Shown: piece after piece, positions 7,041-13,238 of the stretch
How the letters are laid out: every line of letters starts with the position of its first letter
How positions within the stretch are numbered: position 1 is the first letter of the stretch
Origin: an uncultured Prevotella sp.
GTDB taxonomy: Bacteria; Bacteroidota; Bacteroidia; Bacteroidales; Bacteroidaceae
Direction: 5' to 3'
Length of the DNA: 43,557 bases
Assembly (NCBI GenBank): GCA_900315035.1
Contig: OMXO01000046.1
Location: 1 to 43,557, forward strand
Notes under the pieces: model-generated
What the model was told of the DNA's origin: nothing
Seen by the model: the letters and a program-made list of their open reading frames with translations, nothing else
Databases searched by the model: none
Made by a program: the position numbers and the translations under genes

Positions 7041-8928
7041 TTACGCGTCGATATTGGCGTAGGTCGCGTTCTTCTCAATGAATTCGCGGCGAGGTTCTAC
7101 GTCGTCACCCATCAGCATGGAGAAAATTTCATCAGCCTCTGCAGCATTCTCGATGGAGACTTGCTTAAGCAGACGGTTCTCAGGATTCATGGTAGTCTCC
7201 CAAAGCTGTTCGGGGTTCATCTCACCAAGACCTTTGTAGCGCTGCGTGTGCAGAGCTTTGTCTTCACCGTTACCAGCTACATATTTATCAATAAATGCCT
7301 GACGCTGCTGTTCTGTATAGCAGTATTCTGAATACTTCTTGTAGGTACACTTATAGAGCGGTGGGGTAGCGATGTAGAGGTGTCCGCCCTGAATCACCTG
7401 CGGCATGAAGCGGTAGAAGAGTGTCATGATTAGTGTGTCGATGTGAGAACCATCGACGTCGGCATCGGTCATGATGATAATCTTATTGTAACGCAACTTG
7501 TCAATGTTGGCCTCACGGTCGCCTTCGCCCTCTACGCCAAAACGTACACCAATACTTTGAATGATATTCATGACTGACTCTGACTCAAACACGCGATGCC
7601 ACTGAACTTTCTCAACGTTCAGAATCTTACCACGTAAAGGAAGAATAGCCTGGAAGTGACGGTCTCGACCAGATTTGGCAGAACCACCTGCGGAGTCACC
7701 CTCGACAAGGAATATCTCACACTGCTGGGGATCCTTATTTGAGCAGTCTGCAAGTTTGCCGGGCAGTCCGCCGCCCGTCATTGGGTTCTTGCGCTGTACG
7801 CTCTCACGAGCCTTACGGGCTGCGATACGGGCTGTGGCAGCGAGTACCACTTTGTCGCAGATGAGCTTTGCCTCCTTCGGATGCTCCTCTAGATAGTTGC
7901 TCAGTGCCTCGCCTACGGCCTGCTGAACTGCACCAGCCACCTCAGAATTGCCCAGCTTGGTCTTGGTCTGACCTTCGAACTGAGGTTCTGCTACCTTGAT
8001 AGAAATAACAGCCGTCAAACCCTCGCGGAAGTCTTCACCAGCAATCTCAATCTTGGCCTTCTCGATCTGCTTGGAGATCTGGGGATCGGCATCGGCGTAT
8101 GCCTTCAGTGTACGGGTTAGAGCCGCGCGGAAGCCCATGAGGTGAGTACCGCCCTCGATGGTGTTGATATTGTTCACGTATGAGTGGATATTCTCTGAGT
8201 AGTCGGTGTTGTACATCACAGCCACTTCGATGGTGCGGTGACGATCCACGTAGCGTACAAACTCCTTCAGACCGTCCTTAGCGTGGAACACCTCAGGCTG
8301 CTTCAGGCTACCTTCCTCATCAGGACGCAAGTCGGTAAGGGTAATGGTAATACCTGCATTCAGATAAGCTAATTCACGCATGCGCTTGGCAATAGTGTCA
8401 TACTTATATTCTGTCGTTGTGAAGATACTGCCATCAGGCCAGAACTGCTGGCGTGTACCCGTCCTATCCGTATCGCCTACAATCTTCACGTCGTAGAGTG
8501 GCTTACCTTTCTCATATTCTTGCTGATAAATATGGCCGTTACGATAGACTTGTGACATCATGTGGGTAGAGAGAGCGCACCTTATACGATCCCTTGTCGA
8601 ACTTTCCACCAGCATGGAGCACTGTCATGACGACCTCGAGGGCACTCTTGTGCATCTTCTCGTGCTCATCTACGGGAATACCGCGTCCATTGTCCTGTAC
8701 AGTAATGGAGTTATCTTCATTGATTGTTACTTCAATATGCGTACAATAACCGGCCATCGCTTCGTCAATAGAGTTATCGACAGTCTCGTTAACCAGATGG
8801 TGTAGTCCCTTCTCGCTAATGTCACCGATGTACATTGCAGGGCGTTTACGTACGGCTTCCAATCCCTCGAGCACCTGAATATTGCTCGCGGAATAGTTCT
8901 GTTCTTGGTTCTGTTGTTCTTCTGTCAT
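7041..8928 (-). pseudogene. gyrB: DNA gyrase subunit B, broken by a ~38-nt internal deletion and frameshift
   Basis: GyrB is the ATPase subunit of the essential type II topoisomerase that introduces negative supercoils. The 5' part (ATG at 8928, MTEEQQNQ...) encodes a normal GHKL start, including [26 protein letters not shown] and [14 protein letters not shown]. It then runs KFDKGSYKV into a wrong frame and stops at 8539, after 129 residues. The correct frame resumes at [10 protein letters not shown] (about 8576) and continues to NIDA at 7041 with the TOPRIM motifs LVEGDSAGGSAK and IMTDADVDGSH and the C-terminal RYKGLGEMN. The family sequence between KV and ALS (S-GGLHGVG-VSCVN) is absent, a loss of about 38 nt. 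Without it no active ATPase can form. Adding the missing bases gives about 641 residues, a normal length. Confidence 0.93.
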
Positions 8929-10395: not shown

Positions 10396-11730
10396 TTAAT
10401 CGAATCGGATTGTTCCTTGAAAAGAATCCTTGGTTTCAGCAGTCGAATTGTCTGCTTCCGTATAGATATCTCCATTTGCCTGGCTATTGATGCTCTCAAG
10501 GATCTCTCGCGTACGTTTATAAGTAGGTGTAGATTCTACCGCAGAGATGACATCGTCGTTATCCAGATCCTCAGGGCGGAACAGGTAAATGTTCGGACGG
10601 CGCTTGTAGCGCTTAGTGCCACCTTCACCACCATAGTAGCGGTTACGTCGATCCTGACGTTCTGCTGCCCTCTCCTGTTCTGCTGCTATACGATTGAGAT
10701 CTTCCTGACTTTGTTTCTTAAGATGACTGCCCATACCATCAATGCTCTCGATTCCAAATCCAGTAGCAAGTATTGTTACCTTCACCTTCTTTCCAAGTTC
10801 AAGATCGGTAGCGAGGCCCCATTTAATCTCAAAGTCGTTACCGAATTTCGCCATAAAGTCGTTGACGTCGTTCATCTCCTCCATCATGAGTGACTGTTGC
10901 CCATCCTTTGAACCGGCGAAGGAGATAGACAGTAGGATCTTCTTGGAATTGAAGATGTCATTATCATTGAGCAGTGGTGAGTGCAAAGCGTCTTCAATAG
11001 CTTTCTTCACGCGCCCTTCACCTTCGCCATAACCAGTTGACATAATAGCGACGCCGCCATCCTTCAAGACGGTCTTCACATCGTTAAAGTCGAGGTTGAT
11101 GAGTCCATGAACGGTGATAATCTCTGCAATTGATTTGGCAGCCACACTGAGTGTGTCGTCTGCCTTACCGAAAGCATCAAGTACAGATAGTTCTGGATAT
11201 ATTTCACGCAAGCGTTCGTTATTGATAACGAGAAGGGCATCAACATGTTTCTGCATTTCCTCTACGCCATCTAGGGCCTGATCAATCTTGCGGTCACCTT
11301 CAAAGCGGAAAGGAATGGTAACTATACCAACTGTCAGAATACCAAGTTCTTTGCTAACGCGTGCGATGACAGGAGCAGCTCCAGTTCCTGTGCCACCGCC
11401 CATGCCAGCTGTAATAAATGCCATTTTGGTGCCATCGCTAAGCATATTCTTGATATCGTCAAGACTTTCTTCTGCAGCCTGACGGGCTTTTTCTGGTTTG
11501 TTGCCGGCACCGAGGCCCTCCTTGCCGAGTTGCAAATGAACAGGCACGGGAGAATCATTTAATGCTTGATTATCCGTATTACATAGTACGAACGTAACAT
11601 CATGGATCCCCTCGCGATACATGTGATTGACAGCATTACCGCCACCACCGCCGACACCTATTACTTTGATGATGCTATGTTCCTTCTCCGGTGCTCCGAA
11701 GTCCAGAATCTGTATGTTATTATTATCCAT
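10396..11730 (-). CDS. ftsZ: Cell division protein FtsZ
   Basis: Tubulin-like GTPase that polymerises into the Z ring. The 444-residue protein has VIGVGGGGGNAVN at the N-terminus, the tubulin signature GGGTGTGAAPVIA, and the T7-loop region LINLDFNDVKTVL. A linker of about 120 residues is rich in charged residues (ERAAERQDRRNRYYGGEGG). The short C-terminal tail ends SFQGTIRFD. It is the last gene of the dcw cluster, 35 bp after ftsA. No terminator fits between it and the convergent recO, so the transcripts of the two genes must overlap or end within each other. Confidence 0.98.
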   Translation of the reverse strand: MDNNNIQILDFGAPEKEHSIIKVIGVGGGGGNAVNHMYREGIHDVTFVLCNTDNQALNDSPVPVHLQLGKEGLGAGNKPEKARQAAEESLDDIKNMLSDGTKMAFITAGMGGGTGTGAAPVIARVSKELGILTVGIVTIPFRFEGDRKIDQALDGVEEMQKHVDALLVINNERLREIYPELSVLDAFGKADDTLSVAAKSIAEIITVHGLINLDFNDVKTVLKDGGVAIMSTGYGEGEGRVKKAIEDALHSPLLNDNDIFNSKKILLSISFAGSKDGQQSLMMEEMNDVNDFMAKFGNDFEIKWGLATDLELGKKVKVTILATGFGIESIDGMGSHLKKQSQEDLNRIAAEQERAAERQDRRNRYYGGEGGTKRYKRRPNIYLFRPEDLDNDDVISAVESTPTYKRTREILESINSQANGDIYTEADNSTAETKDSFQGTIRFD

Positions 11731-11765: not shown

Positions 11766-13238
11766 TTATTCCTCTTCTATGATGGTCTTTCCAAAGTTCT
11801 TAAGACCTTTGATGGCCTTGTTCCAGAAACTGTTCTCCTTACGGATACGTTCTTGTTCTGCTTTCTCTCGAAGCTCTTCCTCGCGTTTGAGACGTTGCTC
11901 TTCTTCCTCCAGACGGCGCTTCTCTTCCTCGGCAGCCTTCTTACCTGCTTCCGCAGCCTTTTTCTCTGCTTCAGTGAGAACGACTCCAGCAGGAATCTCT
12001 CCTACCTGACGGGCTGGTCTCATGTCGGCTACAGACTGGGCTGATGTTGGCTTCTGTTGGCTGAAGAGGTCTCCATTAGGATCTACAGCACTGCCGGCAC
12101 AATTGATGTCACCTTTAGCCAATAGACCAAGCACTGTGTTCATCATACCATCATGGGCCTTGATACTTTCATTGGTGGAAGATATGGTTTGAGTCACAAA
12201 TTTCGCGATGCGGATCTTATCAACATGTGTGTGGTTTGAGAATGCCTTCCCGATATTTTTCAAGTTCGAACCGCCACCAGTCAGAATGATGCCTCCTAAA
12301 AGTTTGTCGTAGTACTCTGAAGGAATCTGGTACCAGACGTTTTCAATGATTTCTTCTAAACGTCCTTCAACGATTTCAATGAATTTGCGACTCTCTATCT
12401 GACGTTCTGTATCGATGGGGTATTTCAAATCGTTATCGATGTCATTATTGTCGGTATAGGCAGCAGCGTATTTTAGCTTCATCCGTTCTGCATCGCTTTC
12501 TTCCATCTGCAGGGTAGCAATATCCTTGGTGATGTTATTTCCACCGAGGGGGATGACAGCGAGATGGCGAAGGATGTTTTTGGAATAGACAGATACGGTG
12601 GTAGTGTCGGCACCGAGGTCAACAAGAGCGCACCCAGAACGCTTTTCTGCTTCTGTCAGAACGCTGTCTGCCAAAGCCAATGGAGCGAGATACATCTCTG
12701 CCACATTAATGCCGGCCGTTTCAAAACATTTATTTAGATTCTTATAGAAGGCTTTCCTTTCAAGGATGTTCAGGAAATTGCCTTCAAGTTTGGTAGCCTG
12801 AATGCCGACAGGGTCAATCTGAAGTTGTGAGCCAACCTTATATTCTTGTACAGCAGCATCTAATATTTCCTGATCTTGATAGGTCATGCTCCGGTTGGCA
12901 TCCATTAATTCGATTACCATTTCTTGTGTAACGATGCTCTCATTAGGCAGATCTTTTCCAATGATATTTCTGACGCTGCGGATAGATTGTCCGCCAACAC
13001 CGACATACACCTGTCTGATTTCAGTCTTCAGTTGGGTTTCCAGCTTCTTGATAATGCTGGTAAGGCATTGAGCGGTCTTGTCGATATTATAGACCACTCC
13101 TTTGCGGATAAAAGCAGAAGATTCTTCCTTTACAACGGCAAGAACCTGAATACTTCCATCGAGGTTCTTTTGTCCCGCGATACCGGTTACTTTTGACGAA
13201 CCGAGTTCAATTGCTACAATAAATTCCTTTGCTGCCAT
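11766..13238 (-). CDS. ftsA: Cell division protein FtsA
   Basis: Actin-like ATPase that tethers FtsZ to the membrane. It begins FIVAIELGSSKVTGIAG (phosphate-1 loop) and carries ALVDLGADTTTVSVY (phosphate-2) and GIILTGGGSNLKN (adenosine motif). At 490 residues it is longer than the E. coli protein because of a C-terminal extension of about 90 residues with a lysine/glutamate-rich coiled coil (KKAAEAGKKAAEEEKRRLEE, about 415-460). It ends in an amphipathic helix (NSFWNKAIKGLKNFGKTI) that is the expected membrane-targeting sequence. It lies 13 bp after ftsQ. Confidence 0.97.
   Translation of the reverse strand: MAAKEFIVAIELGSSKVTGIAGQKNLDGSIQVLAVVKEESSAFIRKGVVYNIDKTAQCLTSIIKKLETQLKTEIRQVYVGVGGQSIRSVRNIIGKDLPNESIVTQEMVIELMDANRSMTYQDQEILDAAVQEYKVGSQLQIDPVGIQATKLEGNFLNILERKAFYKNLNKCFETAGINVAEMYLAPLALADSVLTEAEKRSGCALVDLGADTTTVSVYSKNILRHLAVIPLGGNNITKDIATLQMEESDAERMKLKYAAAYTDNNDIDNDLKYPIDTERQIESRKFIEIVEGRLEEIIENVWYQIPSEYYDKLLGGIILTGGGSNLKNIGKAFSNHTHVDKIRIAKFVTQTISSTNESIKAHDGMMNTVLGLLAKGDINCAGSAVDPNGDLFSQQKPTSAQSVADMRPARQVGEIPAGVVLTEAEKKAAEAGKKAAEEEKRRLEEEEQRLKREEELREKAEQERIRKENSFWNKAIKGLKNFGKTIIEEE

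Follow-up and report, generated by a model that had tools for sequence, protein, structure and literature searches.

In E. coli GyrB, the loop that forms the ATP lid spans residues 99-120, as given in a passage on this protein (PMC4159350). According to passages of a second source, local assembly errors occur in MAGs and spread incorrect protein-coding sequences into databases (PMC7111523). The stretch of DNA analyzed here (the window, 43,557 nucleotides) is contig C118 of a draft genome of a Prevotella-type bacterium, which consists of 172 contigs and has a completeness of 91.7% and a contamination of 2.31%. No N, as the mark of a join, is present in the window. A gyrB gene lies on the minus strand in the following layout:

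7041-8928, minus strand: gyrB, whole gene, starting at 8928 and ending at 7041
8539..8928, minus strand: 5′ piece of gyrB, from the N-terminus of the GHKL ATPase to KFDKGSYKV and then out of frame (TIGR01059 positions 1-106; HATPase_c)
8577..8578, minus strand: junction of lesion 1, with 38 nt missing, a frameshift and the segment S-GGLHGVG-VSCVN gone (read from the sequence and from the alignment to relatives)
about 8232..8233, minus strand: junction of lesion 2, with 51 nt (17 codons) missing in frame (from the alignment to relatives; the placement is uncertain by a few bases)
7041..8577, minus strand: 3′ piece of gyrB, with the remaining ATPase domain, transducer, TOPRIM and C-terminus, open to the stop (TIGR01059 positions 120-634; DNA_gyraseB, Toprim, DNA_gyraseB_C)

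The sequence-only reading had proposed that this gyrB lacks the GGLHGVG segment because of a frameshifting deletion, with one frame legible up to KFDKGSYKV and another from ALSTHMM onward. Both frames were read as described. At the junction (AAGGTG|CGCTCTC, 8578/8577, minus strand), the 5′ frame passes from KFDKGSYKV into an out-of-frame run that ends at a stop at 8539, and the 3′ frame restarts at ALSTHMM and stays open as far as 7041. The missing length, which had been put at about 38 nt, is 38 nt when the window is compared with each of the 11 relatives aligned there. We translated nine of these relatives, and all nine carry KVSGGLHGVGVSCVNALS at this site; GGLHGVG is present in every one of them and absent from gyrB of the window. 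The loss by a frameshifting deletion is thus confirmed, and the idea that intact related GyrB proteins might naturally lack the segment is rejected, as it is carried by 9/9 translated and 11/11 aligned relatives. The lost segment holds the second glycine motif (GGLHGVG) of GHKL ATPases. As the criterion for gyrB we used one open frame that reaches the curated cut-off of TIGR01059 (882.4 bits). The two pieces in the window scored 642 and 193 bits, and no single open frame exceeded 882.4 bits. The transducer, TOPRIM and C-terminal domains (PF00204, PF01751 and PF00986) were all found in the 3′ piece.

Lesion 2 lies approximately 345 nt from lesion 1 and is likewise private to the window, since the same 11 of 11 relatives carry the 51 nt. 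It had gone unmentioned in the sequence-only reading. Length differences were also assessed along the rest of the window. At least two relatives cover 31,565 positions, including 20,948 of the 21,055 positions between 7041 and 28095; past approximately 28 kb, the alignment of relatives to the window is patchy. Within the 31,565 positions, lesions 1 and 2 are the only sites at which every covering relative exceeds the window by at least 12 nt within 60 nt. The window is longer by 12-35 nt at three sites (approximately 11.9, 15.4 and 27.0 kb). At about 11901-11961, it carries 21 nt more than all four aligned relatives, within an open frame on the minus strand (11766-13238) and close to one of its ends.

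The broken gene occupies the syntenic place of gyrB. Among the 398 genomes of the genus that were searched, G314 was the closest relative, with 84% DNA identity over gyrB (gaps counted). When the three segments of gyrB were compared with G314, the number of amino-acid-changing codons was 1, 4 and 13, and that of synonymous codons 30, 35 and 128. These counts resemble those of four intact relatives, each compared with G314. Judged from codon comparisons, the remaining codons of gyrB appear to be normally constrained and give no sign of decay, and a decayed pseudogene is therefore unsupported. The identity to G314 is 91.2, 87.8 and 87.2% over the three segments. A chimera of two species joined at the lesions is unsupported as well, because G314 is the most identical of the nine relatives compared on every segment.

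A search of a plasmid collection with gyrB returned 87 records and was of limited help: the identity was 60-80% in 80 records and 80-90% in the other 7. Three records filed as plasmids (H1-H3) match the whole of gyrB, namely a 1.77-Mb Prevotella replicon and records of Phocaeicola and Bacteroides. These are possibly pieces of chromosomes or second chromosomes.

A second functional gyrB had been suggested as a way to reconcile the lesion with an essential function. In the incomplete assembly, the only other GyrB/ParE homologue is located on contig C93. It is a full-length open frame of 653 codons with a glycine motif of its own (GLNGVG). It scored 366-367 bits on the gyrB models, against a cut-off of 882.4, and 308.7 and 286.4 bits on parE models with cut-offs of 899.95 and 723.35, respectively, neither of which was reached; the scores on the gyrB models are thus higher than those on the parE models. 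Full-length second matches of approximately 350-385 bits occur in many drafts among the 39 genomes of the genus that were searched again (see below). The low gyrB score, together with such like-scoring second matches in many kin, suggests that the C93 homologue is probably ParE. A second gyrB was therefore not found in this assembly. A probable parC frame on contig C78 is open. Since probable parE and parC are both open, not every conserved gene of the draft is damaged.

Defects of the same kind as in gyrB were found in unrelated essential genes of the source assembly, gyrA and dnaK:

C77, about 59336 (L155, about 3786): gyrA lesion near the 3′ end, with 22 nt missing and a frameshift
C71, about 11718-11721 (L184, about 2718-2721): dnaK lesion near the 5′ end, with about 113 nt missing and a frameshift

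The gap in gyrA is private compared with six of six relatives and shifts the frame approximately 77 codons short of the C-terminus of the relative's protein. dnaK is split by its deletion, as judged against all five loci read after a search of six genomes. In addition, rpoB and rpoC gave no match in the source draft, and EF-G gave no match up to the cut-off. Among six close relatives, rpoB was matched in three and had no match in the other three (G322, G025 and G279). The stated completeness of the four drafts lacking an rpoB match, the source included, is 79-94%. As half of these relatives also have no match, the missing rpoB is weakened as a mark peculiar to the source genome and is to be read as a sign of incompleteness, not of local error.

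We then consider gyrB across the genus, using a profile search of 299 genomes that included the source. The cut-off was exceeded in 256 genomes; in the other 43, among them the source, the match was lower or absent, with no match whatsoever in five. The search was repeated in 39 genomes, namely the 37 besides the source whose match fell short of the cut-off, together with G074 and G227, and ten loci from ten other genomes out of these 39 were read closely. In five of the ten loci, gyrB is interrupted internally with loss of the frame (G070, G173, G241, G244 and G253). G074 and G267 have gaps that keep the frame, of 35 and 23 residues, respectively, and in G227 (L092, C70) a TGA is located at reference position 420 inside an otherwise full-length gyrB. 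All 17 genomes with at most ten contigs (counted by eye) showed a gyrB match with an E-value of 1.3e-277 or better. gyrA of the closest relative, G314, lies in two overlapping frames (L162 and L163; C32).

In the remaining two of the ten genomes, the motif missing from the window is the site of a contig end (G018, C110; G198, C131). Contig C110 starts within the motif, and another contig of G018, C84, holds model positions 1-149 with the motif included. We collected 12 breaks, comprising gyrB-type matches that start no more than 24 bases from a contig start and the contig end of G198. Two of the 12 fall in model positions 108-119 (P approximately 0.02 under a uniform model, in a test made after both had been seen), so that a clustering of contig ends in the GGLHGVG motif is only suggestive.

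Taken together, we have little doubt that the broken gyrB is an ordinary chromosomal gene that was written wrongly by the assembly, and not a product of biology; in the source organism, gyrB is very probably intact. An assembly artefact was one of the options raised initially. Strong support for it comes from gyrA and dnaK, which lie on other contigs and each carry a private deletion that shifts the frame, and rpoB and rpoC went without a match. The repeated finding of a broken or missing gyrB in drafts of the genus and the normal codon constraint speak for it as well. Frameshifts in gyrB, gyrA and dnaK together are not credible in one living cell, given what is established about these genes, and the shared cause is therefore the sequence record. 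As this argument is borne by the lesions in gyrA and dnaK, its odds are affected neither by the missing rpoB match in kin nor by the gyrB piece on C84 of G018. Two local assembly errors would have dropped 38 nt and 51 nt from gyrB, and like errors would account for the sequence missing from gyrA and dnaK of this draft. The reads of the sample would be expected to carry the longer gyrB allele. Coexisting related strains or species, that is, several related Prevotella in the community, may have tangled the assembly and thereby triggered the errors. Extreme DNA conservation of the missing stretches was considered as a trigger and is unsupported: when windows were ranked by their conservation in nine relatives, the missing 38 nt came 805th of 1939 and the missing 51 nt 1789th of 1926.

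Three other explanations were weighed. A real gyrB deletion allele could be present in part of a strain mixture and have been taken up by the assembler; drafts from mixtures may hold minority variants, and the contamination of 2.31% would be in line with this. However, two deletions in gyrB together with those in gyrA and dnaK would amount to several presumably lethal alleles at once, which leaves this explanation a slight chance. An even slighter one is left to the gene being a pseudogene of recent origin or an extra copy that was damaged, while a working gyrB lies at another place in the genome. The incomplete assembly (91.7%) leaves room for a missing copy, and the C93 homologue does score better on gyrB than on parE models, but its 366-367 bits are far from 882.4 and similar to what second matches score in many drafts of the genus. 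Moreover, the broken copy sits at the syntenic gyrB place with its codon constraint intact, so that a damaged extra copy, as had also been proposed, finds no support in this incomplete assembly. Lastly, with gyrA and gyrB both broken and probable parE and parC open, one might imagine a living Prevotella lineage in which gyrase is inactivated in both subunits and topoisomerase IV (parE/parC) alone has taken over. We regard this as vanishingly improbable, because the damage extends to dnaK and is thus not peculiar to gyrase, and because the codons show no relaxation.

The wrongly assembled gyrB matters as a caution only. Drafts of this genus often come without an intact gyrB (43 of 299 below the cut-off or without a match); therefore, when an essential motif appears to be lost in such a draft, a comparison with further housekeeping genes from that assembly should come first.

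Compared with GyrB (TIGR01059) of Prevotella relatives, gyrB of the window is the same gene in the same place with the same reading frames, but the 38 nt and 51 nt that are present in all 11 aligned relatives are missing from it. The errors described in the passages of PMC7111523 are local and give rise to incomplete or incorrect protein-coding sequences, as in the window. Those passages do not describe the gyrB case, and they recognize errors by missing read support, whereas gyrB of the window was judged from the assembled sequence.
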